DNA from: Viridothelium virens
Taxonomy: Eukaryota; Ascomycota; Dothideomycetes; Trypetheliales; Trypetheliaceae
Length of the DNA: 64,000 bases
Reading direction: 5' to 3'
Assembly: GCA_010094025.1 (NCBI GenBank)
Contig: ML991836.1
Location: 62,001-126,000 of the forward strand
The notes under the pieces are model-generated. The model saw only the letters and a list, made by a program, of their open reading frames with translations. It did no database searches and was not told where the DNA came from. Of the stretch, positions 5,232 to 22,568 are shown one piece after another (the stretch's first letter is position 1; every line of letters starts with the position of its first letter). The position numbers were made by a program, and so were the translations under genes.

Positions 5232-6074
5232 TCATCTCTTCGCTCCCCACCTCTGCACACTACCAGCCATATGTGTCTCCCCTATCTCTTGGAATCCTTG
5301 AACAACCCCTTTCCGGTCTCCTTCCCCAATCTCTTGACTCATTTTAAACTTCCCTCCCAATCTCTTCACATCCACTTGGACACCTACAATGCTCTTTTTC
5401 AGTAACGTGATGTATTTTTCTGGCGCGTCCTTTACTTTCCAATCCCCTTTTGAGTTTGCTTGACCAAACCCCATCCCGAGCTCTTCCTGGCGCGATAGAT
5501 CTTCGATCGCTTCCTGAAGGAATGTTGTTGAGACATCGGATGTTGTGGAAGGAAATACAGTGATTTGTCCATAGGCCTGGACTGCCTCGTAGTTCCAAGT
5601 AGGCACAACTTTGCCGGTCGCGGGTTTGGTCGAAGTATAGAACTTCGGTGTCACGTAGTGAGAGATGGGCCCAGTGAATAGCACGAGCACTTCGTCTTGT
5701 AGTGTTACGGGCTGATCCGGTAATTGGCCACTCCCGGCTTCATCAACGAGATTGGTCTTGGAACTACCGGAAGCCTGCACTGCTGCTGCGATCAGCGCTT
5801 TGGCTTGTGGGTTTGCGCGGGCCATGTGGCCACGCAGTCTGCCTAAAGGCTTGCCATTGCTTGCACGCCAAGCAGCATCAAGAGAGGGGTCAGTCGCTGG
5901 GGTGGTGGAGTCATATTCAGTTGGAAAGTCGAAAACCCAGGGAATATGACTGGCCTGAATGAGAGGGTGATCAGGCGAAGGGATTGCTGTGTTAAGGACG
6001 CCAAGAGGATTAGTCTGGAGGAAAGAGAAAAGGGTCGGAAGATAATTGTTTGCATGAACTTGTCGAAGGTACAT
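5232..6074 (-). CDS. PaiB-family FMN-binding (split-barrel) protein
   Basis: An intronless frame of 280 aa. The start is certain because the family begins at MYLRQVHANNYLPTLFSFLQ, matching the MYxPxHF-like opening of Bacillus PaiB. The FMN-binding part continues with TNPLGVLNTAI, HIPWVFD, LGRLRGHMARANPQ and VLVLFTGPISHYVTP, followed by VPTWNYEAVQAYGQITVF. This is the pattern of FMN-binding split-barrel proteins annotated as negative transcriptional regulators. In bacteria PaiB acts with PaiA in polyamine/sporulation control. The biochemical role of the fungal homologues is unknown, and a flavin-dependent oxidoreductase or haem-degrading role is equally possible. Length is slightly above the bacterial 200-210 aa through a C-terminal extension and internal inserts. 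Confidence 0.85.
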   Translation of the reverse strand: MYLRQVHANNYLPTLFSFLQTNPLGVLNTAIPSPDHPLIQASHIPWVFDFPTEYDSTTPATDPSLDAAWRASNGKPLGRLRGHMARANPQAKALIAAAVQASGSSKTNLVDEAGSGQLPDQPVTLQDEVLVLFTGPISHYVTPKFYTSTKPATGKVVPTWNYEAVQAYGQITVFPSTTSDVSTTFLQEAIEDLSRQEELGMGFGQANSKGDWKVKDAPEKYITLLKKSIVGVQVDVKRLGGKFKMSQEIGEGDRKGVVQGFQEIGETHMAGSVQRWGAKR

Positions 6075-7459
6075 CTTGCCGTCTCAAGCGGAGGAGTGAA
6101 AACCGAGCTAGAAGGGAAATCCAATTGAATCTTAGATGGTTAGGGACATGGCAACGTAGAGTCCTACAAAGCAATGAGAAAGTCGCACTTGCAATAGCCG
6201 TATACGGGAGAAGGTGTCAATGGGTCAACCGGGTCTTTTCCGCGGTGTCTGCATCGTATCTCCGGTTGAGAAAAGGAAAGGGACAAAGGTTGAGCAGATT
6301 TAGGGCCGTATTATTAAGGACAAGACCTGGACCGCCAGGGCTTGGTGGACTAGCAACTGGCGCCCGGACCATGTGGGCTCTCCAGCTTCTGCCCCACTTC
6401 TAGTTCCGACATACAAAAAGCTCTCATAGCTCTATAGAGATCGAAAGTATAAGGTAGTCACATTGTAACACAGTCAGAAGTATGAAATTTAGATAAGCGA
6501 ACACAGTCGCACTGGGGAGGCTCTTTATCCTAAACATGAACTCGGTAGGATGACAATTTGCTTCTGAAAGGACCGCATTTGCCATTTAGGTCCTTTCTGC
6601 CTTCATTGCTTAGAAACCTCTGGGCTGGGGTTATCCAATAACGTGAAGTCTGCTTTAAATTCTGAAGCTGCACTGTTTTTGGCATGGGCATTTGCTACAC
6701 TACACCCAGCAAAGTGCGATTCTATCCCAGCGTTCCATCTGTTCCTTCCTTTATAGATTTTTTCCAATCCCATTCCTAGTAGATAGAAGGTAATCTGGCT
6801 TTGTACCACTCTCGTGGTACCACACATTTCTGCATGAGGATTAATATCGTTTTTTCTTTTGAAGATCAAACTAGGAAAACAACTATTTGAAAGGGTTTTA
6901 TGGTAATTTTCATCTGCAAGATGCCTAAAATAGTGAATGCCTATGCATAGTCTATGTGATCTAATACCCCCAGAAGATCTTATGTCTTTATGAAATTGTA
7001 CAATTTTGTTAGGAGGAAAAAAAGACTGATATGGTGGGTCTAATCAGAAGAACAGAAGTCTGAAGGAGATTCATCTGCAGCCAGAGATAAAAGATCGTGG
7101 GAGGCTTTCAAACTGCCAGAAATTGTAGAGAATTGGACTTTTTCCTTCTTTTCTGGCATCCATTGTCCCATAACTCCAGGAGGAAAATGACGATTGTATT
7201 CTCTTGGTTATCAAGCTCCTTGGTCAACATACGTCCTTCACCGTAACTTCGCTCAGCCAGTCAAGCGAGTGAATGACCTGTCCAGTATCATATTGTGCCT
7301 GCTTGTTAAGCCTTGATAGACTGGGTCTTAGTGAAATCCTTGCGAGAAGTTACGTATGCGACTGCACTCTTTGCATTGATGTCTTGATAGAACTACATAG
7401 CATTACTGAAATCGAAACTATGTAGCCACCAGTTATCGTGTATAGATCCTAATTGCCCT
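6075..7459. other. Long intergenic stretch, no gene seen
   Basis: About 1.4 kb without a supported gene. The right half (about 6600-7440) is AT-rich with many TpA steps, which could reflect old RIP-type mutation, but I cannot recognise an element in it. Short frames on both strands lack motifs. Confidence 0.4.
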
Positions 7460-9085
7460 TCATGATGAATTCGAGTTGTCGGCACAAGTCCAGGCACTTG
7501 AACCACCTGAGGCTTTGTAGCTGTCAATTATACCGACAATCGATCCATAAGTACCAGCTATCGTGAGGAACCAACCAGCAACAATGATAAAGATACACCA
7601 GCCGACCATAAACATCCATCTGGTACTTTTCTTTGTCTTTCCCTCATGCCAGTGATCGTAAAGCCACATGCACCCCATGGGCTGGAGCGACATCAATGTG
7701 CCGAGAAGAGCACCGACAAGAGCAACAAGGCCACCGAAGACAGGAATGGCACTGGCGATGATGTAGGCGATGATGGTGTTGCCAGCAGTGCAGCTTATCC
7801 AGGTCACCCAGTGGACAACGGTGTTTTGAGTAAGATGCTTGGAGCCCCGGAGGAAACGTATGAAAAAGTACTTTGCCGAAAGCTGGAAAAAAACGTCAGA
7901 TGAGCACTAACATTATGAAGAAATTGCCTTACATGTACATAGAGCATTGTGGTAACGATCAATCCCGGCAGAGCAATTCCGTAGCACACCTTCTTCATGG
8001 TCTTGCCAGCAGATCCAAGTGCGGGAGATGCGACGAAAGATCCGCAGTAACAGTAGACGACGCAGCCGACTGTAATATATACAGCGGTCATAGTTCCTTG
8101 GCAGATGGCAAGTGACCGGGTGTAATGGCGGGGATCACGCATCTCGGCAGCAATGTTGAAGAAGGCAGGCGTACCGGCATACGCGAATACGATTGATGAG
8201 AGGGATGCAAAAGCATCAGCAGTACTTGGACTCTTGAACAATTTGTAATCTGACTGCCAAGGGCCGGTCTGTGGTGCTGCGGCGGGCCGATCTTGCACGC
8301 CAACAGAGATCGTCAGTGTCAAAACTGATATGGATGTTAGTTTTGTTGAGAAGTATCAAGAATTGATAATGACAATGACCTACTTGCCGTAAGAATAGAG
8401 ACTATACCGACCCACGCGAGCCATGAGACGCGTTCGAGTGTCTGGATACTGCCAAACATAAAGCCAATCATGGCAGCGACAGCGACAAAAACAGCAGTGC
8501 AAGTACCGTGAGACGAAATGGCATTCAACGCGGTTGCGATGCCGAGCATGGCTGAGCCGCTAATAAAGATCACATCTATTTGAAATTAGCGGTAGCCACT
8601 TGAACCAACTAGATTCACGCACAAAGAGCGAAAGTTATGCCGAAGATCTCGTAACCAATCCGGCCGAACAGCTTTCGACCCACGTCGTCGATACCGTATA
8701 CATCGGCATGGCGTAGCTTGAAGCGACCCACGATGTAATCAGACCAGGTAGTCATAACGCCAACAACCAGCAGACAGATGATCCCTGGGATAAGGCCAAG
8801 ACTATCGAAAACTTGCGGAATCGAGAGAACACCCAGGCCAATCTGTGTCTTCAACATCAAAACAGTAGTTCCTTTCCAGCCAACCTAAGGAAAATCAGTA
8901 ATGTGCACTGTCAGCTTGATCCATCCTTGACCTACAGCACGGTAGTTCGGACCACCTTCAGTGATCTCCCCAAAGACTGCATCGCTGACTGATGCTCGTC
9001 TTTGCTCGCCATGGGCAATTGATGTGGTAGGATAAATGTCATTTTCCTCATCCACCTTCTTCTCGAAGTTGTCAAAGTGAGGCAT
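7460..9085 (-). CDS. AAAP-family amino-acid permease (Mtr/AVT-like)
   Basis: Five exons (9085..8936, 8884..8623, 8575..8384, 8324..7933, 7882..7460) encode about 472 aa; introns are 47-59 nt and all phases agree. The N-terminus is polar (about 50 aa). The first membrane segment carries the family motif GWKGTTVLMLKTQIGLGVLS, followed by IPQVFDSLGLIPGIICLLVV, SGSAMLGIATALNAISSHGT, SIVFAYAGTPAFFNIAAEMR and several further hydrophobic segments, about 11 in total. This is the fungal plasma-membrane neutral/aromatic amino-acid permease group related to Neurospora Mtr (N system). It lies next to the P5C dehydrogenase gene and reads the same way, so it is a likely uptake step for the imino-acid cluster. 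Substrate assignment is inference. Confidence 0.88.
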
Positions 9086-9866
9086 TTTAAATGACTAGTA
9101 GACGGGAAGAGACAGATGCATGAATTGCAATGATATGCGCAGAGACTTGAGCCTCAGTAGGTAAGGATGAAAGGACCTTGGTAGATGTGTAGAAAGAAAT
9201 CTACAACCCCGGCCGTTATTTATAGTTAGTTTCGAGCTTTTCTCGAAAAGCGGACGAAGCCTGGGATACATATTAAAGTCAGACATCCAACGCTATCTTC
9301 TCTGGGAAATGAGATGCAATTAGCGCATGCAAGGTGCACCCTAGATGGAGGGAAGAGGGGGCTCAGACCTCGATAGCCCATGGGGTTGACGGCGCTATCC
9401 GAGTACTAGATTTCTCGGACTCGTTCCCGAGAATTATGTATACGGTCATGTTCTGAACGAGAAAGGTCTAATTCAAGCCTCAAATCGATGCAATGGTGGC
9501 GATAAGCTCATCGGCGAGCGATACAGATAGAGCCTGCGATAAGAAATTTCTTGCGAGCAAGAAAGGCTGATCTAGGCCATACGGATTTCTTCCAGGCTGA
9601 TCGGAGATTATCGCCATTGAGTGTCCAGTGCACTTGAAAGCTATCAAAGGTACTGAATGCCTCCATTGCTTCTTTCGCAGTTAACGTGTATTCCCATGCT
9701 CCACATACCTCATGCAGTCCCACCTTGCAGTGGGCTGTCCGACGTCATCCTGCAAGCCCAAAAAGTCAGAGCCTAGGCGTAGACAAAGTGGCAATTTAGC
9801 AAGTATCTATGAGGCTATTGAGCGACTCAAGATTACAGGGTCGTTCGGAAGCGGGCCCTTCATCGC
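9086..9866. other. Intergenic between permease and P5C dehydrogenase
   Basis: Contains the permease promoter and the 3' end of the dehydrogenase gene. No further gene, repeat or clear regulatory motif was recognised. Confidence 0.45.
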
Positions 9867-11685
9867 TCACATTGCCCCTTCCTCCATGTTGCTAGGATAC
9901 ATGACCTCATCCAACTTGTTGAACTCTTCCTTTAGAGTCCTGGGTGCTACAAATCTCATTAACAACCCACTGCTGCCCGCCTTATCACATGTTCCACTGG
10001 CTCTCGCGCCGCCAAAACTCTGCTGTCCAATCACTGCCGCTGTGATCTTACAATTAATATAGAAGTTTCCGGCCGCATACCGTAGTCTATCCTCGGCTTC
10101 CCGAACCGCCTTCTGGTTGTTGGAGAAGATGTTGCCTGTGAGCGCGAAGCCACCGCCGTGGCTATCGATGTGACTGAGGGTCTCCGAAAATTTATTGTCG
10201 GGGTAGACATAAGTTGCGAGTACGGGACCAAAGAGCTCCTTATCGAAGACCCAGTGACTGGGGTCGGACACGTTATAGAGTGTAGGGCTGATGTAGTAGC
10301 CCACGCTATCATCATACGTGCCGCCAACAATCGTCTCGACTTTAGGATCTTTGTTCGCTGCGTCGATGGCGGAACTGATGCGCTCAAAGGCCTTCTTGTC
10401 GATGACGGGCCCAGTAAAGGAGGTATAATCTTCCGGTGGTCCGACTTTGATGCGGGCGAGTTCCTTTCTCATTTCTGAGAAGAAGAGCTTCGATTGGCTT
10501 TCGGGAACATAGATGCGAGAGCAGGCAGAGCACTTTTGGCCGGCGTACTCATAGGCAGCACGAACAGTGTGTCTAACGGCGTTGGGTACGTCGGCGGACG
10601 GTCCGATGAGATGAAAGTTCTTACCAGACGTCTCGCCTGCTAGTCTAGGGAAGTCGCGATACTTTTTCTCGGCGTGGCCTTTCGCAGCTTTAACGTGCAA
10701 CCCTCGGAAGACGTCAGACGAACCGATGAAGGATAGAGCCGAGAATTCGCGATGGTTGAAGACTACGTCAGTAATCAATGCAGCGTCTCCATTAACGAGT
10801 TGTACAACGCCCTCGGGAAGACCAGCTTCGAGCAAAATCTTGTGGACCAACCAACTTTGGTATGCCGTCATAGGTGCTGGCTTCCAGACAACCACGTTGC
10901 CCATTAATGCAGGTGCAGAGACGAGATTACCGCCGATTGCCGTGAAGTTGAAGGGTGAAACGCTGTAGACGAATCCTTCTAGTGGCCGCCAGTCTGTTCT
11001 ACCGTAATGGCTCGGTGCGTTGACCGTAGGCTGCTTATCATAGATCTCTTGAGCGAACGAAACATTGTAGCGGAAGAAATCTGCCAACTCCGCGGCAGCA
11101 TCAATTTCTGCCTGCCATGCATTCTTTCCCTGGCCTAGCATTGTAGCAGCTAACAGCTCGAATCTGTACTTCCCCGAGACAAGATCCGCCGCTCGCAAGA
11201 AGATGGATGCCCGGTCTGTGAAGGGCATGTCTCGCCATTCCTTCTTGGCCCTGAGCGCGGTTTCGATAGCTTTCTCGACATCTTCTTTCGATGCTGAGGC
11301 GAATTGTTGGAATGTCGATGCGTGCTCATGCGGTTGGTGCATCGACGTGAGGTCGGCTGAAGGGTCGACTGTGGCGTTGAGACTACCGAGAGCTGGAACT
11401 CTGACAGGAAGACGTGCCTTCAGATCTTCCAGCGCCGTGGCCAGCTTTTGGCGCTCGGCCGACCCTGGGGCGAAGTGTAGCTGCACACAAGTTTTAGCGA
11501 ACTGTATAAGACCACCTCGCGCAGGCTGGGCTTACATTGGGTTCATTGAACGGCTTTGGTACTCTGTAAGTGCCAGACGTAAGGGTTCTTGCGGTCCCTA
11601 CACGTTGCTGCACACACAATCGACTCTGCCATGAGCTCCATGATCGAAGAGTCAGTCCATGATTTCGTAAGGTGGCTGATCGCAT
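9867..11685 (-). CDS. Delta-1-pyrroline-5-carboxylate dehydrogenase-type ALDH
   Basis: Two exons (11685..11536, 11480..9867) encode about 587 aa. The N-terminus is Arg/Ser-rich and looks like a mitochondrial presequence, leading into the family start TYRVPKPFNEPN. The ALDH4/P5CDH core follows: SPFNFTAIGGNLVSAPALMG, NVVVWKPAPM, FIGSSDVFRGL, LAGETSGKNFHLIG, and the catalytic Cys at about residue 367 in YAGQKCSACSRIY. The enzyme oxidises glutamate semialdehyde/P5C to glutamate, or 3-hydroxy-P5C to 4-hydroxyglutamate, with NAD+. The C-terminal substrate-anchor region departs from the usual form: YINCKITAAVIGQQ and ASGTCDKAGSSGLL, where canonical enzymes read YINDKSTGAVVGQQ and ASGTNDK. This suggests a paralogue with altered specificity. 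It is clustered with PRODH, aldolase, reductase, permease and regulator genes, like the A. nidulans prnC arrangement but with extra members. Confidence 0.92.
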
Positions 11686-12256
11686 TGTGCTGAGGAGGGG
11701 ATATCCAGAGCGATTGAATGCTCTCTACGATATTCCGTCGCTCAAATTCCGGCGGGACCCATCAGAAAAGCAGCATTGCGGACGCGCAAACAAAACCTTC
11801 ACGGCGCTACAATGTATTGTCAACGTATGGAAGGCGTCCGGCCATCATCGGATGGAAGACCGCAGGATGCGTTATCGTTAGCCATCCCCGCGGCCGGCAG
11901 TCATGTGGAGGGGTCGAGATGTTGATCTTTTACTGGCGTCGGATGTAACCAAATAGATGTTCGGGATGCACATCCGACAGCTCGTTCGTGTAAGATAAGA
12001 TTCACGGATGCGTTCCCGTAGCCTGCGATCTGGCCAGCGCGGAACCGACACTACCCTCTCTTACCATGGTTCATGGTGCCATTCGACTCAAGTACGAGGA
12101 CTGGATTTTACGAGACTGTGAATGGCCCGTGAACCTGGATTCTTTACTGCCGGCTTGATGTCTCATTCTAGTATTTGGCCGCGGCCTCGGTATGAGGCTG
12201 ACGAAAAAGACTTGATGTACACTTCCTCCGAGCGTGTTTGATTCTGCTAAACTAAA
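11686..12256. other. Divergent promoter region of P5CDH and FAD oxidase genes
   Basis: A 571-bp region between divergently read genes. It contains a GATAAG core at 11994-11999 and CGG/CCG-rich patches such as those around 11885-11895. No coding sequence was recognised. Confidence 0.5.
11994..11999 (+). promoter_or_regulatory. GATAAG, possible AreA/Nit-2 GATA-factor site
   Basis: A GATAAG core in the shared promoter of the P5C dehydrogenase and FAD oxidase genes. In Aspergillus and Neurospora, GATA factors activate proline-utilisation genes under nitrogen limitation. A single six-base match is weak evidence by itself. Confidence 0.25.
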
Positions 12257-13638
12257 ATGATCCAAAATTTTGGGAGCACAAAGATGAACAAGCAGGATTT
12301 GCCAATTGCCATTGTTGGTGCAGGCGCGTGGGGATTATCCACAGCGCTGCACCTCGCAAATGCCGGCTACACGAACATTACGGTATACGAGCGAGCGGAG
12401 AAGATCCCTTCGCCGTACTCTGCTGCCTGGGACCTCAATAAGATTGTGCGGGCAGAATATGAGGATGGCTTTTACACAAAACTCGCATTGGTAGACACGA
12501 CCTTATTAGTCAGATCTGAACAGTAGCTGAGCTATTGTAGGAAGCAATCGAGGGCTGGAAAACGGCTTTGTTCGGTCCATATTTTCACCAGACAGGTTAT
12601 GTTGTCGCGGCCACTGGTCGTGCTCCGCCCAAGGCCGTCAAGCATATGGAAGATGCTCTGGCAACAATCGAGAAAGACCCAATATTTGCACCCGGAATCA
12701 GGCGCCTCGACGGTGCTGGGGACTTTAAAACTTACACTTGGCAGTATTCGGGCCCGCTAACTGGATTCAAAGGGTATTTTAACCGTCTGGCAGGATATGC
12801 ACACTCTTCAGATACGCTTGAAGGCATATGGAAGCACTGCGCAAGCATCGGTATAAAGTTCGTTCTTGGCGAGGAGAAGGGGAAGGTGGCAAGGTTGGTC
12901 TACACGGGCAAGAAGTGCGTTGGTGTCGAAACTGCGGACAGCAAGACTCATAAGGCGGACCTCACAATTTGTGCTTTGGGAGCGCACAATGCTGCCTTGC
13001 TGCCTAGTTTGGGCCAGTTCGTCACAGCTCGTAGCTGGTCGGTGGCACACGTTCAGCTCAGCGAAGATGAGGTCAACCTGCTCCGCGGTATTCCCACCAC
13101 GAATATAAGAGACCTGGGATTTTTCTTTGAACCAGATCCCAAGACAAGGCTGTTCAAGCTCTGTCCGCTCGGTATCGGATACACAAATCCAGGACCCAAC
13201 GGTGTATCATTACCACCGCCTGAGCGGCTTCCTCCTCCTCAGGACTTCATCCCTCGTGAAGACGAGCTGAAGCTTCGACAACTGCTGCGCGAGACGTTTC
13301 CCTGGATGGCAGATAGGCCTTTTGTAGATCAGAAGCTATGCTGGTTTGCAGATACTGCAGACTCGGAATTTTGCATTGACTATGTACCAGGAACAGACCA
13401 CTCTGCCATTGCCCTGTCTGGCGACTCTGGGCACGGCTTCAAGATGATGCCAATCTTTGGTAAGTGGGTCAAGGAGTTGATCGAGAGTGATGAGCAGCAT
13501 CTGCAACGCTGGCGATGGAAGAACGTTGATCTGACGGACCAAAATTGGGGAGAAGCCGTTAGTTGGCGCATTGGCAAGGGCGCCGAATTGAAGGATCTCA
13601 TCGCAGCACAGAGCAAGATAGCACGGGCGAGGCTATAG
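12257..13638 (+). CDS. FAD-dependent amine oxidase (MSOX/fructosyl-amino-acid-oxidase-like)
   Basis: Two exons (12257..12490, 12541..13638) encode about 443 aa. A second in-frame ATG at 12284 gives 434 aa and is closer to the FAD motif. The Rossmann motif is IAIVGAGAWGLSTALHLANA, followed by the acidic ribose ligand in VYERAE. The C-terminal part has KLCWFADTADSEFCIDYVP and ALSGDSGHGFKMMPIFGKWV. The latter is typical of the monomeric sarcosine oxidase, L-pipecolate oxidase and fructosyl amine oxidase family, which oxidises secondary amines or imino acids and may bind FAD covalently through a Cys. Substrate is not determined by sequence. Beside proline and hydroxyproline genes, a D- or L-(hydroxy)proline, pipecolate or N-methyl amino acid is plausible. 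It is read divergently from P5CDH, with 571 bp between the genes. Confidence 0.85.
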
Positions 13639-14069
13639 CCGTAAATACCTCAGTCACTGTAATGAGAAATGTCAATGATAATTCACGTCATGCGACTTCC
13701 AAAGCTTGTACTGGGATAGTTCAGTAAACATTCTTCGTTTCCCATCGTTGTCTGTCAACAGTCTTGTACCACGTGACTAAAGTGGATTGGGCTCTGAATC
13801 GGCTTGCAATAAGGTACCGTATATTTGGTTGGCTTAGCCATGGAATACTTGGTGTCGACGGCGTCGGAAACGTCGGGTGCAGATCCGGTAAAAGAGAGGG
13901 CTGCGTTAACGCTTGTTGATAGATAAGCTGCGTTTCAGTTCGAATCCATATCGAGGCTTGAAGATGTTCATCGCAAAAACTACTCTAAAATTGGTGTACC
14001 TACTTTTACTCGAGGTCTCGTGTTTGCCTCAACGAATGGACGATCGAGCATCGCCCGTTCTGCTCAACG
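13639..14069. other. Intergenic, promoter of the orphan membrane protein
   Basis: Contains a CACGTG core (13770-13775) and a GATA pair (13918-13927). No gene recognised. Confidence 0.45.
13918..13927 (+). promoter_or_regulatory. Closely spaced GATA cores (GATAGATAAG)
   Basis: Two GATA cores four bases apart, the second in the preferred GATAAG form, about 145 bp upstream of the orphan membrane-protein ATG. Paired sites are favoured by fungal nitrogen GATA factors. Binding is inferred, not shown. Confidence 0.3.
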
Positions 14070-14938
14070 ATGCCGAACGACGACACAACGCTTAGAGCAC
14101 CTAGCACGGCCGAATGGCTGGCAAGAAGTCTTGCAGGCGATGTGACAGCTGCCGTGACAGCCGCTGCAGCAGTCTCCCCGATTATGACTGTAATCGACAG
14201 GTCAGTAGGCGATAATCAGTGATAATATTATCAAGCGACTCATGAGGGTACAGAGCAGTAGTAGAGAATGCAGCGGGCCAATGCCCTCTGCTGGCGTCTA
14301 CCCGAGCTTCCTTACGCACATTGGTCCGCCGTCCACGCCAATTTTTCATGACCCGGTCGTTTTCTGCGATGTTCTTCCTTTATATGGGCACCTACTTGAC
14401 CGCCAATACAATCGATACAATGTCTTCGTATAAGCAGGGACTTCCCGCCGCGTCAGCGACCAGCAGCAGCGCCAAATTCCTTGCAGTCACGTCTGTGAAC
14501 GTCGGACTAGCATTAAATAAAGACAGTGTTTTCGCGCGCTCATTTGGAACACAGTCATCCCGCTCACGTTCGCTACCGCTCATTAGCTACATACCATTTC
14601 TCATGCGGGATGCGATAACGCTGTTCGCAACATTTAACGTGCCGTCATTATTGGCGCTGAAACTTCCAGACACCGTAGAGTGTTGCATGAGCAAGCTGTC
14701 TACAGCGCAGCTGGTGGCACCAGCGGCAAGTCAATTTTTGACAACGCCGCTACATCTCTTAGGGCTCGATCTGTACTATCGGAGTGGGAAACTGTCGTCT
14801 TTTGAACGCGTCAAGGCGGCAAAAAAGGCGTGGTTGTCCACATCTTTGGCCAGGGCTTGTCGCATTGTTCCTGCATATGGGGTCGGAGGCGTTATAAACA
14901 ACAATATGAAGATGTATATGACAAAATCACCGAGTTGA
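14070..14938 (+). CDS. Conserved fungal membrane protein, possible mitochondrial carrier-like
   Basis: Two exons (14070..14200, 14254..14938) give about 271 aa; the 53-nt intron ends ...GTACAG and restores the protein-like join TVIDRAVVENAAG. The protein has several moderately hydrophobic segments: LAGDVTAAVTAAAAVSPIMT, FSAMFFLYMGTYLTANTIDT, FLMRDAITLFATFNVPSLLA, PAASQFLTTPLHLLGLDLYY and IVPAYGVGGVIN. The recurring Pro-Leu...Asp/Arg ends (SPIMTVIDR, TPLHLLGLDLYYR) loosely recall the carrier-family PxDxxKxR repeats. I know relatives only as uncharacterised fungal proteins, not by function. Both flanking enzymes (PRODH and P5CDH) act in mitochondria, so a mitochondrial imino-acid or intermediate carrier is a reasonable hypothesis. 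That function is inference only. Confidence 0.7.
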
Positions 14939-15327
14939 ATACAAACAGAAGGCCTTCGATGCTAGGCACTCGCTTGAGCGGGTTGACCAGTAGACGCGTG
15001 AATCCCCGCCGGGGTGCTTTTGCCTGTCGAAGGTTTCTTATGTCATCAAGTCACGTGACCCTATCTCATCCCCGCTCCACTCCTCTGCGTCGTTGCGCGT
15101 CTTGTACTCCGTATGTGAGTGTACAGCTCTTACTATTCCTGATTCTCGCAGGTAGGGTGGTATTTTGCACCCTGTCCATTGTGCATCTTTCGCCGATGCC
15201 ATTGGGTACGCATCATGTAAGGGCGCAGAATGTTAAAGAGCACAGATAGAATTGGGCGTAGGAACGATCGCGTACGCAAACGTGCTCCAAATGCGTTAGG
15301 ATCTTCTGTCATCTCACGTGATTGTCT
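14939..15327. other. Intergenic, promoter of the Zn2Cys6 regulator
   Basis: Holds two CACGTG cores (15052-15057 inside the palindrome GTCACGTGAC, and 15315-15320) and one TACTCCGTA motif near 15105. No gene recognised. Confidence 0.45.
15050..15059. promoter_or_regulatory. GTCACGTGAC palindromic E-box
   Basis: A perfect 10-bp palindrome with a CACGTG core, about 270 bp upstream of the regulator ATG. A second CACGTG lies at 15315-15320, only 7 bp before that ATG, and a third at 13770-13775. bHLH factors of the Cbf1/CpcA-associated type bind such cores. The role here is conjecture. Confidence 0.3.
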
Positions 15328-17733
15328 ATGTCTCTTGCTGACCTGGATGCTAGCTGTGTTCGATGCAGGAAGCAGAAGATAAAGTGCTCTGGAACTGTGC
15401 CATGCGAGCAGTGCAAGAAGAGATCTGTGCTCTGCGATTTCGATGCTAGGCAACAGAAAGTCTTGGTAACCCAAAGGTACAATCATTAGCATGAGCCATG
15501 AGTCCATAGCTCACGAGTTGCAGCTATATCGCCGACCTCGAAGAACGGGCTGCTAGGCCGAGGAGGGGAAGCACAGATGAAGACCAGGAGACGGGCCCTG
15601 ATGACGAGGAAGGCCACCATGAACAGGACCATGGACTATCTAGGCCCACGACACCGCAAGTCACACCGCCGAATGACAGCGGAATCAATATCGATGTAAG
15701 CAGATCTCCGCATTCAGACATAGACCAAGTGCATCAGAATGGACTTCATAGCGCCCCTGCGGCCGATCTCAGGAATCCATTGGATCCTGTGAATTCTGAT
15801 GCCTTTACCGTGAACAACGGTAGTAAACCCTGTACAGCTCACGGCCCCTTCCGCTGTGTTGCGCTGTTGACTGACCGTGACAGATTTTCTTGGCGTGTCA
15901 TCAAATTGGTCGTTTGGTCGGCGGGTCTTGCGCATGGTGCACTCCAAGACCAGTGAAGCACCTCTATCAACCGCAGCACTTCTTTTCGAAGGCTCAACCT
16001 ATGACCTCGGCTGGGACGGTCAACGAACTTCAGCAAATGTTGACAGCAGTGTCCTGCCCGCGGCGGACTTTGCAATCTATTTGATCGATGCGGTAAAATT
16101 TCACTGTGGTCATCTGTTCCATATGTTTGACGAGACGACTTTCATGCATCATTTTCACAAATTCTACGACGAACCGAGCAATCAACGGACCTACCCTAGA
16201 CTCTGGTATATTCATTTTCTCATCATACTTGCTTTCGGCAAGGGATTCCTCGTCCGTGCCAAAAATGAAAAACGCCCACCGGGATCCGAATTATTCGTGC
16301 AAGCCATGAAATTGCTCCCAGACATTTCCTACATGTACAGTGATACTGTACAATCGATAGAATTGCTGTGCTGCGCGGCATTGTATCTCCAGTGCTTGGA
16401 CAACCGGAGTGCTGCGTACAACATGGTAAGTGTATCCTCTCTTTGGATCCACAGAACGGTCCCTGATGTATCGCAAGATAGGGCAAGCTTTGCGGATGGC
16501 GGTCGAGCAAGGCATGCATACTGATATGAGAAGCCTTCACTTGTCTGAAAGCTTGGTTGAACGCAATCGGGAAACATGGTGGACAGTCTACGTTCTTGAC
16601 CGCCAAATGACTGCTCTGATGGGTGTGCCTATGAGTCTCTCCGATGATGACATCACAGCTCCCCTGCCTTCCTTCGCCGGCTCGTTGGCAAAGCAGAAGG
16701 CCCTTGATATTCATATCAAATTAGCCAGGGCTAATGCTGCGATCTTGCAGAGTAAGTGCACTAGATCGGATAAACAAGGTGGATGCTGACTGTCCATATA
16801 GCTGTTTATGGTAAGACTGGTGGTAGAAGCGAACGCTTTCTTGCTAGCATGAAGGAAGCTCTCAGAACTATCGCTGAAGCGAAGGACGAGCTAAACCTTT
16901 TCTATTCGCTCAACTTACACCAACCAGCAGGCGGCATCTCTAGACTTTGGGCAACCTTGCATTTGTTCCATCACCAGGTATAATATCCTTACAATTGGAT
17001 GTGCTTTGTACGCTAAGTTGCGTTCGATAGACTCTCATTCTTGCGACAAGACCATTGCTTTATAGCTTCCTGCAGAAGCGACTTGAAGCGACTAGGTCAC
17101 TACGTGTGTCTTCCTCTTCAGATGCAAGATCATTGATTCGTGTGTGCGTCAGCTCTGCTCAACAGAGCCTCAAGCTTTTGGAGACTTTACAGTCGCAAAG
17201 CCTGCTCGGCAAGTGGTCACTCTAAGATCATGTGAATCATTCCTAACAGTTCTCCAGAGAGTTTTGTCCCATTCGATCGCGAAGCGACTTTCTCTTCGTC
17301 GGTCGTCCTCTCCGTGGCCGCAACCGTTGATCCATCCCTCGTCAAAGATCGGGACTCGCGTTTGATGACCGCTTCCAGTATTCTTGATGAAATGGTGTCT
17401 TGCGGTAATCGTATTGCTGATTTCCAACGGCGTGAACTTGATCAGCTAGACTTTAGCTTGAGGAGGCTGCAGGAGTTTTCAAGCCCAGCGATTTCGAACC
17501 ACCAAGTCCAGCATGAGAATTCTGACAGCGTACCAAGTTACAGTATGGCCGCTGCAGATGTTCAGATGGATGGGAGAGACCAGGCAATGTCACATGTCGA
17601 TATCGGCAGGCTTCTAGACGAGTGGAACTCAGAAGATAGTCTCAATGGCGAGCAGCTTCTGGCAGTTGTTGACTCTTTAGACTACGACCAATTCAACTGG
17701 CCTGGTGTGGGAGAATTTGATGCATGGACCTAA
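15328..17733 (+). CDS. Zn2Cys6 transcription factor with fungal_trans domain
   Basis: Seven exons (15328..15476, 15524..15819, 15884..16425, 16478..16751, 16802..16977, 17031..17208, 17258..17733) encode about 696 aa; all phases agree. The binuclear cluster is C-x2-C-x6-C-x5-C-x2-C-x6-C (SCVRCRKQKIKC then CEQCKKRSVLC), starting nine residues from Met. A basic linker and the usual YIADLEERAARPRR dimerisation start follow. The fungal_trans middle-homology domain includes FLGVSSNWSFGRRVL, HLFHMFDETTFMHHFHKFYD, IGQALRMAVEQGMHTDM, ETWWTVYVLDRQMTALMGVP and LPSFAGSL. The C-terminus is acidic and may be an activation domain. The last intron (17209-17257) appears to use a GC donor. Its place between FAD oxidase, orphan carrier and PRODH suggests a pathway-specific activator, analogous in position to PrnA of the Aspergillus proline cluster. 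Confidence 0.9.
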
Positions 17734-18234
17734 TTTCCGGCACAGAAAAAGTTGGCAAAGATGACTGAGGTTCTCACAAGGCAACAATCAGCACACAAGA
17801 CGATAGAGAGATGCACGCGGGTCTTCCAAGGACGGTAACATTCGATCCTCCGAGCCGTCGAAATTCATCTAAGGCCAAAATATCGTCAAGGGGCCCGCGA
17901 CCCGCGTTCATCAAGCTCCCGTCCCGTTGATATCGGCAATGCTTCTATGATGCATGCACCTCGAGAACTGGTCTGCAGATGAATGAGCTAAGTCTGGCGC
18001 ATGATCTGCATCCTTATCAAGGTCCCTGGGATTCCATAACCTCTCGGCATCGCAACCGGGCGTTGCAGGGTGGGCTGTGGTGATAGCGCTTCACAAGAGG
18101 TGGGGTAGCTTCTCAGATAAACACTAATCGGAAACACCAACCGACCACCACCTTGATATTGCAAATATACATTCATCTTAGGAGATCATTCACTGCCGTG
18201 TTCGGATTCTAATTCAATCAAGCTCAAATTCCCC
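17734..18234. other. Intergenic, promoter of the PRODH-family gene
   Basis: A 501-bp interval between two forward genes. A GATAA core occurs near 18116. No coding sequence recognised. Confidence 0.45.
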
Positions 18235-19773
18235 ATGATGTCTACCCGAGTCCATTGTCATATCTTTCAGCAAGGGCTTTGCCTACCAACCAGTCCACTT
18301 TGTCGAAGCTCAAAGGTCGTCTGGGCGACTACATATAGTCGCAAGAACTCGAGTTACGCTGCACTACCACGGAAAGGTGAAGATCATGATGTGCACCACC
18401 GTAGAACTGCTCTGAGGAAGCAGCCAAACGGGTCCATGATATCAGGGCTTGAACGCGTACCCACACCTGCCATCCTACGCAACTTACTCCTGGGCCTCCT
18501 GCTCTCCTCTCCACGCTTATCTCACGTAGGCTTCAAGCTACTTGACAAAATGGCGTACTCCAAATCTACTCTCCTCAATCCAGATGCCAACCCAGTGCTA
18601 CGTGCGGTGGTGAAGCCCCTATTCTATGATCAGTTCTGTGCCGGAACGAATCAGAAAGAAGTATTCAGGACGAGAGACACAATACGACGGTTAGGCTATG
18701 CGGGGGTGATACTATGCTACGGCAAAGAGATACAAATATCGCGATCAAAGAAGCTCCAATCTACAGGAAGTGAGTGTACAGACCAAGCTCTAGAAGTCGA
18801 GCAGTGGAAAGAAGGCAACTTGAGAACACTTGACATGGTTGGAGAGGGCGACTGGATTGGTCTTAAGTGAGCAGTTCTCGCTATTCGGCAGGTAACACGA
18901 CTAATGGAGTCTAGATTGACCGGCGCCGGGCCTGGTGTTGCAAATGCCCTGATGAATAACCAGGACCCGCCGGCGGAATTTGTCGCCGCCATGGACGCGA
19001 TCTGTCAAAAAGCAAGGTCCCAGAAATGCCGTCTGTGGGTCGATGCCGAACAGCAAATGTTCCAGACAACAATCGATCGCTGGACCATCGACTTTATGCG
19101 TAAATATAACACCAATGGCAAAATATTAGTATATAGCACTATTCAAGCTTACCTCAAATCATCGCGAGACAAAATCAAATATCAGTTGTCCCTAGCTGCG
19201 GCGGAGAACTGGACACTGGCTATTAAACTCGTCCGCGGAGCCTACATCGCTAATGATCAGAGGGAAAAGATTCACGACACGAAGGCGCATACAGATGAGT
19301 CGTACAATAGCATCGTCGCCGATGTTCTGACAGGCAGAAACCTTGGCTTCCTTGGTTCTAATGGGCAGAGCTTCCCGAAAATAGCACTCTTCCTCGCTGG
19401 CCACAACCCTGAGTCTGTGTCAAAAGCATGGGACCTGATCCAGGAGCTGTCCGCGAAAAAAGAGCTTAAAGTCTTGCCAGACTTTGGACAACTACAGGGT
19501 ATGGCAGATGTGCTTGGGTGTAGACTTCTGCAGAAATGTGATGACTTGAAGGCAAGCAGTGAGAGTTCGACACGTCTTGATGACGCATCTAAGGAGGAGG
19601 TCGTTGCCGTGCCAGAGGTTTTCAAGTGTCTTACTTGGGGCAGCATGCAAGAATGTATGCAGTACCTTTTGCGACGACTGATTGAGAATCAGAGCGGCGC
19701 AGACAGAATGAGAGACGGACTGACTGCATATCGGCAGGAGCTGTGGAGGAGATGGTTTGGAAAGTCGGTCTAA
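18235..19773 (+). CDS. Proline/hydroxyproline dehydrogenase (PRODH family, mitochondrial)
   Basis: Two exons (18235..18866, 18915..19773) encode about 496 aa. The 48-nt intron ends GTCTAG and restores GEGDWIGLKLTGAGPG, a conserved join. The N-terminal 50 residues are basic and hydroxylated, consistent with mitochondrial import. Family marks are LGYAGVILCYGKEI, EQWKEGNLRTLDMVGEG, RLWVDAEQQMFQTTIDRW, KLVRGAYI, DFGQLQGMAD and YLLRRLIEN, whose Arg464-Arg465 pair the substrate carboxylate. The residue 12 before the YLLRR tyrosine is Cys449 (TGT at 19627-19629, context FKCLTWG). Proline-specific enzymes have Tyr there (Y540 of E. coli PutA, Y548 of human PRODH); human hydroxyproline dehydrogenase PRODH2 has Ser. 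This points to hydroxyproline as substrate. The reaction is FAD-linked oxidation to P5C or 3-hydroxy-P5C. Confidence 0.92.
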
Positions 19774-20035
19774 AATTGGTCGATATGTCACGATTTTGAA
19801 GAATGCGAATAATGATATGATAGCCGCTGTTGCTAATATACGTATCTTCGATTCTAATGAGTATGAAAATCTGATGAACTATCTACGCGGGTACCACTCA
19901 CTCAATATCAAGAATACTTAGCTTTAGCTATGGAGACGGCGTCCACCTATCTAATGCCATTTATCCCTGCAATCCCGTACCACTGTTGCCAACTAGCTGA
20001 GCGACGCGTCCAGGCAACATGCGAACACAATCGCA

Positions 20036-21088
20036 TCACAACCTAGCCTGTGCAGTTTCGCTCTCTCGAGCTACGTCCTCTAATTTCGCAATCCTCGCAA
20101 CGGTCTCCCTAATCCGCCTCTGCTGATCCTCCGGAACTCCCACATATGGCTTCCTCGGCCTCAACAAGATCTCCGCATCCTTGATACCAGCCCGTCTCGC
20201 CGTCCCTATCGCAGCCGCAAACTTCGTATTCGCAATCCCCGCCTTGGTCGGCTGCTCGGCGAGCGAAAGCACCTGCTGCAGAGCCAGCGCGTCTTCCTGT
20301 CTGCCGCACTCCCACAGCCGATACAACCTCGCGACGGATTTGGGGAATACGTTGGCGAAGGCGGCGATGCATCCTGCGCTGCCGACTGCGAGACCGCCCA
20401 GGAGGAAGTCACTCTGGCCGCCGAAGGTGACGAAGCGGGAGGGTGGGAAGGTGGCTGCGAGCCGTGCGATCTTAGCGACGGATCCGCAGGTCAGCTTCAC
20501 GCCGACAATGTTGGGGTGAGCTTGGGCGAGAGCGGTGATGATGTCGGAATCGAGATCTAGGCCGTTGCAGACAAGAGGGAAATTGTAGAGGATGATGGGG
20601 AGCGGAGAAGCGGCTGCGATGTCTGCGAAGAAGGACTTCACGACTTCGGGGGTTGTTTGTTTTCCGAAGTAGGCGCAGGGAAGGATGAGGAGATAGTCGG
20701 CTCCGGCTTCGTGGGCGTCTGCAATGTACTCCAGAACTTGTGCTGTCGAATGGCCCATGACACCAGCAATAATTGGGAAGCCTTTGGGCACACTTCTTCG
20801 CGCTAACTCAAGGAGGGTCCTCCGCTCTTCGCGCGTGAGAAGAAATGTTTCCGCATTTGTTCCCAAAATCACGAGTCCCGTTAGGCCAGTGCTGGCGAGA
20901 TAAGCGTAGTATTTTGACTGGGCCTCTAGATCGAGCTCGTCTCGGTCCTGCTTGTAGAAAGTGACAGCCGGCACGTAGGTACCAGGCTTTGGAACAGGGT
21001 GAGAGTGGGATAAGAGAGGGCCGCTCGGCCTCTTTGAAGTAGAATCGTGAAGGAGAGTCGCCATATGGGCGTGACTGACTAGTAGCAA
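20036..21088 (-). CDS. DHDPS-fold aldolase, probable 4-hydroxy-2-oxoglutarate aldolase
   Basis: An intronless frame of 350 aa. A second in-frame Met at 21064 (MATLLHDS) is a good alternative start. The DapA/NAL fold is clear: GTYVPAVTFYKQD, LGTNAETFLLTREER, PIIAGVMGHSTAQVL, GADYLLILPCAYFG, the catalytic Tyr168 in IILYNFP, GLDLDSDIITAL, HPNIVGVKLTCG with Schiff-base Lys198, and GGLAVGSAGCIAAFANVFPK. The ILYNFP...GLDL...HPNIVGVK run closely follows human HOGA1, which cleaves 4-hydroxy-2-oxoglutarate to pyruvate and glyoxylate, the last step of mitochondrial hydroxyproline breakdown. Alternatives in the same family are L-threo-3-deoxy-hexulosonate aldolase of galacturonate catabolism (LGA1/GaaC) and delta-1-pyrroline-4-hydroxy-2-carboxylate deaminase of bacterial hydroxyproline pathways. 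No galacturonate gene is adjacent, while PRODH, P5CDH and P5CR genes are, so HOGA is favoured. Confidence 0.85.
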   Translation of the reverse strand: MLLVSHAHMATLLHDSTSKRPSGPLLSHSHPVPKPGTYVPAVTFYKQDRDELDLEAQSKYYAYLASTGLTGLVILGTNAETFLLTREERRTLLELARRSVPKGFPIIAGVMGHSTAQVLEYIADAHEAGADYLLILPCAYFGKQTTPEVVKSFFADIAAASPLPIILYNFPLVCNGLDLDSDIITALAQAHPNIVGVKLTCGSVAKIARLAATFPPSRFVTFGGQSDFLLGGLAVGSAGCIAAFANVFPKSVARLYRLWECGRQEDALALQQVLSLAEQPTKAGIANTKFAAAIGTARRAGIKDAEILLRPRKPYVGVPEDQQRRIRETVARIAKLEDVARESETAQARL

Positions 21089-21642
21089 TGAATTCGCGCT
21101 GGAAAGAACTGATTGCCGTTGAATCCAATGGTGGCTCGCAGCTCGTCTACAATCCCGACATATATTTTCTGAAGATTCTGCGACATAATGGGCTAATACT
21201 GCCTAACCGATCTTACATCTGGTGTTCTGTAACGTCGGGTGCTGAGCCGATGCGAACCCAGACATCCGGCTTCAAGAACAAGTGGCAGTAAGGAACTATG
21301 CGAACGTCATTTCTACCGATGAAGCCTCCGAAACTTTCATATAATCGCCTGTCTGAGCTGTCAACACTTGTCTCCGAAGCATAAGGGGCGTATGGATATG
21401 CGAGCGACGCCTGCTTGAATGTGCCACTTCTTGTTGCAGGTGGTTACCCAATCTCGGTAGCTCATCCGAGCTTTCCGATTCTTTGATTAAATAAGCGCCA
21501 CCTATCGGAACCCTTTACCGCAATCCATTTCATCAGTCGCTTCGAAAGGCGATGAGGAATTGGGTTCGTCTGCATATCGATACTGCTGAAGCTGCCGACA
21601 GCTGTTTACGAATCCGGGATTCTATTTATTAACATTTTGAGG
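21089..21642. other. Divergent promoter of aldolase and P5C-reductase genes
   Basis: A 554-bp interval between divergently read genes; no coding sequence or repeat recognised. Confidence 0.45.
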
Positions 21643-22568
21643 ATGGATGAGTTGGAAATTGTGGTTCTTGGATGCGGTAAGCAATGCTGTGGAGATATGC
21701 TCGGCTCTTGGCCCTAATCAGATCGGAAGGCTCCATCGGTACGGCCTTATTGCAAGGCCTACTCAAGAAAGGAAATCCTAGATACACATACGTAGCGCAT
21801 GTGAACACGGCTTTATCAGCTGAACGCATTGAGTCTGAACTTGAGAGTGAGGCCAGGCAAAGAGTGGTAATTACGTATGGCCAAGATAAGATCGTGCATG
21901 CAGTGGCCAATGCAGATGTTGTCTTGCTTGGAGTTCAGCCTCAGACTCTCCCGAAGTTACTTGATTCCCAAGGATTGGTTGATACGCTTCAGGACAAGAC
22001 CATCATCAGCATGCTGGCTGGTGTATCCGTTTCGCAAATTCTGGACATGCTCGTCGCGAAAAGCACTTCAACTGGCCGTGCAAATCGAGAAGCCTTCACT
22101 GTTGCAAGAATTATTCCAACTCTCGGAGCGACCAGAGGAAATAGCGTGACTCTTTTAGCAGAGCCCAGCGAGTCGGATACTGCCGATCGGTTCCGACGGG
22201 TGGAAAAAATCCTCTCGCAATGTGGAAGCGTCATTCGTGTGGAAGAAAGCGTTATGAACTCTGCAACAGCAATCGGCGCTGTTGTCCATGCTCTTGCGAT
22301 CGTGGCTGTGGACTCTGTGACAGATGCGAGTGTTGCAGCCGGCGTGCCTCGTAGTGTGGCGGCTGCAATAGCATCGCAGAGCTTGAATAGTGCCAGTGGT
22401 CTTTTAAGTGGCAAAGATCGCATGCTTCCAGAACATCTCAAGGCCGCTATGTCCACACCAGGTGGTATCACACTGAATGCCGTCGTCGATCTTGACGATA
22501 GTGCCAGGTCAGGGATCGCTGCGGCTGTAAAGGCTGCGGTCAAATATGCAAATCGTATGAACGACTGA
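21643..22568 (+). CDS. Pyrroline-5-carboxylate reductase family protein
   Basis: Exon 1 is only 34 nt (21643..21676) and supplies the first half of the nucleotide-binding motif; after a 53-nt intron, exon 2 runs 21730..22568. About 290 aa. The join gives MDELEIVVLGCGSIGTALLQ, a Rossmann motif in which the usual GNMG is GSIG. Further P5CR marks are ANADVVLLGVQPQTLPKLL, ISMLAGVSVSQI, ARIIPTLGATRGNSVTLL and the C-terminal helical domain with STPGGITLNAVVDLDDSARS. The family reduces P5C to proline with NAD(P)H. In a catabolic cluster it may instead return 3-hydroxy-P5C to hydroxyproline, or reduce another cyclic imine such as a delta-1-pyrroline-2-carboxylate. Divergent from the aldolase gene. 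The ordinary biosynthetic P5CR is probably encoded elsewhere; a genome search would tell. Confidence 0.88.

Follow-up and report, generated by a model that had tools for sequence, protein, structure and literature searches.

Eight adjacent genes of Viridothelium virens on balance probably form a co-regulated cluster for the use of trans-4-hydroxy-L-proline, perhaps also of proline, along an animal-type route, with all substrates deduced from sequence. The cluster occupies positions 7460–22,568 of the window, i.e., the whole analysed stretch of 64,000 nt (assembly GCA_010094025.1, contig ML991836.1, 62,001–126,000). New in this analysis are the CGG-N8-CCG promoter dyads and the paired -ARL C-termini alongside mitochondrial-type N-termini of PRODH and P5CDH. 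An earlier, sequence-only reading had listed the eight genes and ascribed one chemical theme to them. All eight are there, with families assigned mostly by Pfam, and the theme was borne out: it fits the breakdown of trans-4-hydroxyproline by a mammalian-type route. The overall interpretation of that reading is partly supported, by the theme itself and by what the analysis added to it: the shared promoter sites, the aldolase type, the separate PRODH/P5CDH/P5CR set and the lack of any hydroxyproline epimerase match. Hydroxyproline is thereby a candidate substrate beside proline or another imino acid.

Gene content and protein families

The genes of the cluster are as follows.

7460..9085, minus strand: AAAP-family amino acid permease (five exons, 466–472 aa by choice of the last splice site)
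9867..11685, minus strand: P5CDH (L-glutamate gamma-semialdehyde dehydrogenase), 587 aa (TIGR01236; preferred 55-base intron)
12257..13638, plus strand: FAD amine/imino-acid oxidase of the fructosyl-amino-acid-oxidase/MSOX superfamily (Pfam DAO; PDB)
14071..14938, plus strand: orphan protein, 271 aa, with several hydrophobic stretches (hydropathy, one paralogue)
15328..17733, plus strand: Zn2Cys6 transcription regulator (finger in the first exon; unspliced model)
18235..19773, plus strand: PRODH-family enzyme, 496 aa (Pro_dh 157.7 bits; 48-base intron)
20036..21064, minus strand: DHDPS-fold aldolase, 342 aa, intronless (Pfam DHDPS; residues, tree)
21643..22568, plus strand: divergent P5CR-type reductase, 290 aa (P5CR_dimer; intron 21677–21729)

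The seven genes modelled (permease, P5CDH, oxidase, orphan, PRODH, aldolase and P5CR-type gene) have reading frames without stops. Pfam Aa_trans matches lie in two exons of the permease, and four in-frame GT-AG splice solutions yield 467–473 letters, counting the stop sign. With respect to the PrnB-type APC/YAT permeases, Aa_trans scored above its cut-off, whereas AA_permease, on one exon, remained below (22.1 vs. 24.6). The protein is proposed to take up (hydroxy)proline. P5CDH passes the curated TIGR01236 cut-off (680.3 vs. 613.6 bits for the first, 594-aa model), and its best PDB matches are the yeast and mammalian P5CDH. The intron of the first model is 34 bases long; one of 55 bases (11481–11535) is also in frame, leads to the 587-aa protein and is preferred.

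The PRODH-family enzyme, proposed to act as a hydroxyproline dehydrogenase, had no match in a phmmer search of the PDB. With a two-sequence PRODH profile, PutA was a weak match (best E 1.6e-4) whose last helix aligned free of gaps. Cys449 sits where PutA has Tyr540, 12 residues before Tyr461, the same spacing as that of Tyr473 and Tyr485 in SmPutA. Tyr540 of PutA is a gate that enforces proline over hydroxyproline, and it is absent from the cluster enzyme. The C15 PRODH of the same genome also lacks it (Ala), so the loss is not special to the cluster, and its value as proof of hydroxyproline use is weakened. Human PRODH2 presumably has Ser at this position. The active-site Asp is still present in the cluster PRODH (WVDAE) but gone from the C15 copy (PAAEE), which makes the cluster enzyme the one of the two genomic PRODH matches with all checked residues except Tyr.

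The oxidase had been called MSOX-type earlier. This holds at the level of the superfamily, but the nearest solved relatives are fructosyl-amino-acid oxidases (4WCT/3DJD, 218–219 bits), monomeric sarcosine oxidase being far weaker at 38 bits. In common with fructosyl-amino-acid oxidases, the protein has the KLCW/RICW cysteine region and the DxNK motif. In the Amadoriase stretch ‘CDEHPGY’ the residues Asp-Glu-His, which we take to be sugar-binding, are replaced, and an Amadoriase identity was rejected as the first choice on this ground. No relatives of the oxidase were found on plasmids at E 1e-5. The reductase matches Pfam P5CR_dimer, in agreement with its earlier naming as P5CR-type, but misses the NCBI proC cut-off: its second exon (the 11-residue first exon excluded) scores 142.1 bits against TIGR00112, with a cut-off of 196.75, while the P5CR frame on C36 passes with 248.1. 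The GSGPAY region of PYCR1 is not kept. Five named residues were looked for in a PYCR1 paper (PMC7939384) and none was found, and therefore no PYCR1 residue role is claimed. Neither the FAD oxidase nor the P5CR-type gene is required by the mammalian-type route.

The first exon of the regulator encodes the Zn2Cys6 finger CVRCRKQKIKCSGTVPCEQCKKRSVLC, and Pfam Fungal_trans reaches 21.0 bits on one exon, just below the cut-off of 23; the protein is a candidate pathway activator. The orphan protein has no Pfam match, even at E up to 10, and one paralogue in the genome (C68:72730–73485). In its hydropathy profile seven peaks exceed the threshold, and six of these are spaced at about 45 residues (five peaks in the paralogue frame), which points to a putative membrane transporter. 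The idea of a mitochondrial carrier, suggested by the hydrophobic peaks, gained no support from Pfam (Mito_carr) or hhalign, where the comparison with five carriers of the same genome gave a probability of 0.9% and the control against the PRODH pair 0.3%.

The DHDPS-fold protein is proposed to be a 4-hydroxy-2-oxoglutarate aldolase. The earlier label, HOGA-like, is apt for the HOGA/4-hydroxy-2-oxo-acid type, but the nearest solved relative is fungal 3QFE (420 bits, 62% identical), with HOGA1 next at 111 bits. 3QFE, which we take to come from Coccidioides immitis, is listed merely as a putative dihydrodipicolinate synthase family protein, i.e., a fungal protein without an assigned function. In the alignment, the aldolase keeps the Schiff-base Lys196 of HOGA1 as well as Tyr168, Asn78 and Tyr140. 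Lys196 and Tyr168 are essential in human HOGA, and Asn78 and Ser198 bind the substrate; however, Lys196 and Tyr168 do not discriminate, since 77 bacterial relatives keep both. At the GXXGE motif of HOGA1 the protein reads GTNAE, with Thr for Ser77 and Ala for Gly79, and it has Thr at Ser198. The S77T substitution reduces human HOGA activity. Because GXXGE and Ser77 are not kept, the enzyme is filed as working like HOGA and not as a proven member. The Asn78/Thr198 pair is common to the aldolase, its C13 paralogue and relatives on C11 and C24, and hence does not fix the substrate. A first scan of genome contigs with the fungal alignment found no relative.

Promoter dyads, targeting signals and second copies

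A Zn2Cys6-type dyad, CGG-N8-CCG, is present in seven copies in five of the six cluster promoters.

9416..9429: permease promoter, 331 bp before the ATG; without TG
11849..11862: 164 bp before the P5CDH ATG
12005..12018: P5CDH–oxidase intergenic region, 239 bp before the oxidase ATG
13874..13887: 184 bp before the orphan ATG
18045..18058: 177 bp before the PRODH ATG
21236..21249: 172 bp before the aldolase ATG
21455..21468: 175 bp before the P5CR-type ATG

For five start codons, the distance between dyad and ATG is 164–184 bp. This result was attained by any of 63 dyads in 8 of 3000 simulations, and in 16 of 3000 draws from the genome; some dyad class occurred in five of six regions by chance fairly often, namely in 63 and 48 of 3000, respectively. 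No CGG-N8-CCG was found upstream of the three left-hand genes, in favour of a cluster-specific site. Against it, the regulator’s own promoter contains none, the permease copy departs from the usual pattern, and the unrelated stretch L031 contains six such dyads within 3.4 kb. The Zn2Cys6 regulator would bind the cluster sites.

Both the oxidase and the aldolase carry a peroxisome-type signal, -ARL, at the C-terminus; these are two of the four PTS1-like ends among 179 long frames. PRODH and P5CDH have mitochondrial-type N-termini, that of P5CDH being Arg-rich without acidic residues. The enzymes would accordingly be predicted to reside partly in mitochondria and partly in peroxisomes.

Across the whole genome there are two PRODH and two P5CR_dimer matches. 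The distant second PRODH on C15 is 36% identical to the cluster PRODH, the distant second P5CDH on C101 is 53–56% identical, and a second P5CR copy is located on C36. As these copies exist elsewhere in the genome, the cluster represents an extra set.

Proposed route and its alternatives

In the proposed route, the AAAP permease would take up the imino acid, which the PRODH-family enzyme would oxidise in the mitochondrion to 3-hydroxy-pyrroline-5-carboxylate. Mitochondrial P5CDH would then yield 4-hydroxyglutamate, a putative housekeeping aspartate aminotransferase would form 4-hydroxy-2-oxoglutarate, and the peroxisome-targeted aldolase would cleave the latter to pyruvate and glyoxylate in a compartment where glyoxylate is usable. 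The Zn2Cys6 protein would activate the cluster genes via the CGG-N8-CCG sites, and the FAD oxidase may let N-alkyl, D- or other imino acids enter from the side. A more elaborate version is possible but doubtful: a hydroxyproline regulon spread over two organelles, with mitochondrial oxidation, peroxisomal aldol cleavage and side oxidation, a dedicated Zn2Cys6 activator acting at CGG-N8-CCG, and the orphan carrying hydroxyproline or 4-hydroxy-2-oxoglutarate between compartments.

The mammalian pathway, as described in PMC8779045, consists of PRODH2, P5CDH, AspAT and HOGA1, all four mitochondrial. Here one cluster contains members of the PRODH, P5CDH and HOGA-type aldolase families; the earlier claim of three out of four mammalian steps side by side is valid for protein families, but not for demonstrated activities. 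Unlike that pathway, the cluster has adjacent and apparently co-regulated genes and an aldolase with a peroxisome-type signal, and no aminotransferase gene was found inside it. The oxidase, the P5CR-type protein, the permease and the orphan are extra.

According to PMC5983819, the prn cluster of A. nidulans (prnA, prnX, prnD, prnB and prnC) also brings together a permease, PRODH, P5CDH and a Zn2Cys6 regulator. The V. virens genes might thus be an enlarged proline cluster of this kind, in which PRODH and P5CDH would be the chief enzymes of proline use, while by-products or lesser substrates, hydroxyproline among them, would fall to the aldolase, oxidase and reductase. The active-site Asp, kept in the cluster PRODH alone, suits this explanation, which we consider rather unlikely: it is the separate C101 P5CDH that keeps the Gly of the human anchor loop, the cluster copy having Ala, and an aldolase is superfluous for proline, although its gene has the same promoter site and spacing. 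The same source gives prn an APC/YAT permease (PrnB) and CCGG-N-CCGG or CCGG-6/7N-CCGG sites, in contrast to AAAP and CGG-N8-CCG; the aldolase, FAD oxidase, P5CR-type protein and orphan are additional to prn. There is a smaller chance that the substrate is another cyclic imino acid (pipecolate, N-methyl- or glycated proline, D-isomers), from which the peroxisomal oxidase would make an imine, with the reductase, dehydrogenase and aldolase processing the products. The FAD oxidase is indeed the most distinctive enzyme and shares its -ARL end with the aldolase, and a remodelled P5CR-type protein would suit an unusual imine, but PRODH and a P5CDH of the TIGR01236 class point to five-membered substrates of the proline type, and the missing Asp-Glu-His of the oxidase argues against a glycated one.

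A bacterial-type route, in which the FAD oxidase would produce pyrroline-4-hydroxy-2-carboxylate and a DHDPS-fold deaminase would convert it to alpha-ketoglutarate semialdehyde, appears very unlikely. The cluster resembles bacterial hydroxyproline operons (e.g., L051) in its FAD oxidoreductase, DHDPS-fold enzyme and aldehyde dehydrogenase; the DAO-type oxidase and the DHDPS-fold protein, both with -ARL, match the bacterial pair, and the best plasmid relative of the latter (34% identical) belongs to such an operon. A racemase-family gene occurs in two of the six plasmid neighbourhoods examined (Pseudoalteromonas and Paracoccus). However, among the relatives of the Pseudoalteromonas protein (80 loci, 67 of them with an epimerase relative within the stretch examined), all 77 that were readable have V, L, I or C at position 78, and the Paracoccus protein has Ser, against Asn in the cluster enzyme and HOGA1. 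Position 140 is not Tyr in any of the 77 but is Tyr in the Paracoccus protein, so Tyr140 alone does not exclude a deaminase. In a tree of 39 rows, with every third readable bacterial row included (26 of 77; three of 80 with stops dropped), the aldolase joins HOGA1 and four fungal relatives (support 99/98) apart from the bacterial deaminases, with long-branch warnings for HOGA1, Paracoccus, Azospirillum, Variovorax and S. meliloti DapA. Bacterial operons possess an epimerase. The only match to the proline-racemase family (PF05544) in the V. virens genome, with the motifs MCGH and RSPTG, is of the Cys-Thr (3-Hyp dehydratase) type, and no Cys-Cys hydroxyproline epimerase was found in the genome, so a bacterial route would lack this enzyme; PRODH and P5CDH are encoded instead. 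The deaminase identity was rejected mainly on Asn78, the tree and the missing epimerase, a rejection weakened by the Tyr140 of the Paracoccus protein, beside a racemase-family gene, and by the flagged long branches. Chance neighbours with no functional unit are the least probable explanation, given the common promoter dyad, the common spacing and the clear housekeeping gene (F-actin capping protein) as the right-hand neighbour.

Collagen and the proteins of plant cell walls are rich in hydroxyproline. In open PMC full text, no fungal hydroxyproline cluster was found among the matches listed (the best 2–25 of up to 15,906), which is a weak absence. If the hydroxyproline assignment is true, the cluster would supply fungal genes for this pathway, a possible function of the 3QFE protein family, for which a structure is known and a role lacking, and a new activator–site pair (Zn2Cys6 and CGG-N8-CCG). 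It would also raise the question of why an aldolase step that is mitochondrial in animals would be peroxisomal in fungi.

Gene content and second copies

The eight adjacent genes that the sequence-only reading had grouped at 7460..22568 of the window are present, with seven of the families recovered by Pfam where that reading had placed them and seven genes spliced to open frames. The Pfam matches are Aa_trans, Aldedh, DAO, Pro_dh, DHDPS and P5CR_dimer, together with a Fungal_trans match just below the Pfam cut-off in the regulator, which possesses a Zn2Cys6 finger and whose gene was read exon by exon only. The Pfam search with the orphan returned no match.

Genes of the cluster and its neighbours
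Permease: 466-472 aa, depending on which of four candidate last introns is used; spliced, open frame
P5CDH: 587 aa (594 in the first model); spliced, open frame
FAD oxidase: 443 aa; spliced, open frame
Orphan: 271 aa; spliced, open frame
PRODH: 496 aa; spliced, open frame
Aldolase: 342 aa; intronless, open frame
P5CR-type reductase: 290 aa; spliced, open frame
Window 1409-2615 (-): TauD-type 2-oxoglutarate dioxygenase, on the cluster's left side
Window 3900-4823 (-): free-standing B3/4-domain protein (79 bits), near the cluster on its left side
Window 5235-6083 (-): FMN_bind_2 (PaiB-like) protein, adjoining the permease on the left side
F-actin capping protein, right of the cluster

The B3/4 domain is known from phenylalanyl-tRNA synthetase. 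Judged by the short introns, the Fungal_trans match and the Zn2Cys6 finger, the DNA would come from an ascomycete-type fungus. The genome searched comprises 30.7 Mb in 175 contigs, and the cluster PRODH, P5CDH and P5CR-type genes are an extra set beside copies elsewhere in it. Pro_dh has two matches, in the cluster and on contig C15 (2/2 candidates scored), P5CR_dimer has two, in the cluster and on C36 (3/3 candidates scored), and the P5CDH class has two genes, in the cluster and on C101. The C15 PRODH is 36% identical to the cluster PRODH and has an intron position after GLK in common with it. The C101 P5CDH is 53–56% identical to the cluster P5CDH, in two pieces, the next aldehyde dehydrogenases being 25–33% identical. 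No second cluster was seen by eye in 9.9 kb around either the C15 PRODH or the C101 P5CDH. The orphan, a putative membrane protein, belongs to no recognised family and has one paralogue in the genome (L043 4207-5028 (-), on G000:C68; 45–48% identical). In the 9.9 kb read by eye there, nothing resembling a proline cluster was seen. The FAD oxidase groups with fructosyl-amino-acid oxidases and sarcosine oxidases; a genome search turned up two distant relatives.

The cluster P5CDH scores above the cut-off of TIGR01236, the P5CDH model. Its anchor loop reads ITAA (STGS in human, CTGA in yeast and C101), and RASGTN of the human and C101 enzymes is RASGTC in the cluster. The P5CR-type protein scores below the proC cut-off, keeps TPGG-T and does not keep the GSGPAY stretch of human PYCR1; it may be a changed imine reductase.

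A shared promoter dyad

Six intergenic regions (permease, P5CDH/oxidase, orphan, regulator, PRODH and aldolase/P5CR; 3259 bases in total) were fixed before the motif search. Among 63 CGG/CCG dyad classes, CGG-N8-CCG stands out, with 7 sites in 5/6 regions, where the remainder of the window would predict 0.48. Five regions with 7 sites arose for any dyad class in 8/3000 order-1 Markov versions (0/3000 for CGG-N8-CCG itself) and in 16/3000 random equal-length sextets drawn from 137 kb of this genome; at least five regions by any class with any site number were commoner (63/3000 and 48/3000, respectively). The regulator's own promoter contains no CGG-N8-CCG. None starts within window 12 to 8530, so the three left-hand genes, including that for the B3/4-domain protein, which is without the shared site, lie outside the dyad pattern.

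The form CGGNTGNNNNNCCG, chosen after the sites were seen, fits six of the seven cluster sites. The window has 7 copies of it, of which 6 are in cluster promoters and 1 is within the permease gene; nine other 9.9-kb stretches together have two. The narrower CGGRTGNNNNNCCG occurs 5 times in the window, always within cluster promoters, and is not enriched genome-wide, given 298 occurrences versus 334 for the reversed control. Sites lie upstream of the ATG by 164 bp (P5CDH), 184 bp (orphan), 177 bp (PRODH), 172 bp (aldolase) and 175 bp (P5CR-type), a spacing matched by random placement in 18/20000 trials with a bin width picked post hoc; the oxidase site is 239 bp before the ATG, and the permease site, which lacks the TG, 331 bp. 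The cluster Zn2Cys6 regulator would be the protein binding these sites.

Outside the cluster, six CGG-N8-CCG were found in 3.4 kb (L031 2444-5781, G000:C101:25443-28780). This stretch is on the contig of the second P5CDH, some 9–12 kb from that gene. An identical 14 bases, CGGTTGCGATGCCG, are present at window 8531-8544 (permease exon) and, on the opposite strand, at 18045-18058 (PRODH promoter).

Substrate of the PRODH and type of the aldolase

We take Tyr473 of SmPutA to be the position of PutA Tyr540, which enforces proline over hydroxyproline. In the cluster PRODH this place is occupied by Cys449, and the last helix aligns with PutA without gaps. SmPutA uses Asp306, Ala307, Tyr373, Leu449, Tyr473, Tyr485, Arg488 and Arg489 (PMC11596857); by motif and spacing, Asp-Ala, Tyr290, Leu404, Tyr461 and Arg464-Arg465 of the cluster enzyme were matched to these residues. 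The C15 PRODH (L028 4573-6253, -) has Ala at the Tyr473/Tyr540 place, and its active-site Asp is missing too (PAAEE). Judged by these residues, the cluster PRODH would be permissive for hydroxyproline; since the gate Tyr is replaced in both copies and C15 also lacks the Asp, it may also be the main proline enzyme, which is the strongest support for the main rival, an enlarged proline cluster. We regard this rival as rather unlikely.

The DHDPS family has matches in the cluster, on C11, C13 and C24, in two pieces on C54 and in a short one on C110; C11 or C24 is, at our guess, a galacturonate-pathway aldolase. The cluster aldolase shares most identity with C13 (69%) and the fungal structure 3QFE (62%), followed by C11 (39%), C24 (37%), a Pseudoalteromonas hydroxyproline-operon protein (36%) and HOGA1 (32%). 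In that operon an epimerase, an FAD oxidoreductase and an aldehyde dehydrogenase lie alongside, which raises the rival that the cluster protein is a deaminase. The Pseudoalteromonas protein has 568 bacterial relatives, and for the best 80 of these an epimerase relative was present in 67/80 stretches, the oxidase in 60/80 and the aldehyde dehydrogenase in 42/80 (17 stretches were short); a racemase-family gene was present in 2/6 plasmid neighbourhoods read. In human HOGA, Lys196 and Tyr168 are essential, Ser77 belongs to a proton relay, Asn78 and Ser198 bind the substrate and Tyr140 is dispensable (PMC3188589). In the alignment, positions 196/168/77/78/198/140 of the cluster protein read Lys/Tyr/Thr/Asn/Thr/Tyr, and Ala replaces Gly79. 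Asn78 and Tyr140 are found as in HOGA1 in the cluster aldolase, C11, C13, C24 and 3QFE. In the 77 stop-free proteins of those best 80 bacterial relatives, the residue at position 78 is V in 55, L in 10, I in 9 and C in 3, and none has Tyr at position 140. Ser78 is combined with Tyr140 in the Paracoccus protein, which lies beside the other of the two racemase-family genes; Asn78 alone therefore separates cleanly. A tree of 39 rows, to be read with its long branches in mind, places HOGA1 in one group with the five fungal proteins (support 99/98), and every bacterial row falls outside it. With these residues and this grouping, the cluster protein looks like a 4-hydroxy-2-oxo-acid aldolase; the residues do not fix which acid.

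The single PF05544 (proline racemase family) match in the genome (L132 1492-2751 (-), G000:C27:94048-95172) is apart from the cluster. A Cys-Thr pair marks trans-3-hydroxyproline dehydratase and Cys-Cys the racemases and epimerases (PMC4364671). The C27 protein contains MCGH and RSPTG, read as Cys-Thr, the trans-3-hydroxyproline dehydratase type. With no Cys-Cys protein among the PF05544 matches of this genome, a bacterial-type hydroxyproline route would lack its epimerase.

Proposed compartments and route

The N-terminal 44 residues of P5CDH contain 8 Arg/Lys and the first 47 of PRODH contain 7, with 0 Asp/Glu in both. The C-terminal residues are ARARL in the oxidase and AQARL in the aldolase, where we take -ARL to be a peroxisome signal; the C13 paralogue of the aldolase ends in KGR. 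Among 179 stop-to-stop frames of at least 150 aa from the window and twelve stretches of the genome, four have [SAC][KRH][LM] ends: the cluster oxidase, the cluster aldolase, the C21 oxidase relative (SKL) and one other. The N-termini free of acidic residues and the -ARL C-termini suggest oxidations by P5CDH and PRODH in mitochondria, with the oxidase and aldolase in peroxisomes. The peroxisome is a sensible place for glyoxylate release.

No fungal hydroxyproline cluster was among the matches listed in full-text searches of open-access PMC papers, and the make-up of the cluster is new as far as seen. The catabolic cluster is real and probably co-regulated, and we lean, slightly beyond even confidence, to its serving hydroxyproline by the animal-type route (PRODH2, P5CDH, AspAT and HOGA1).
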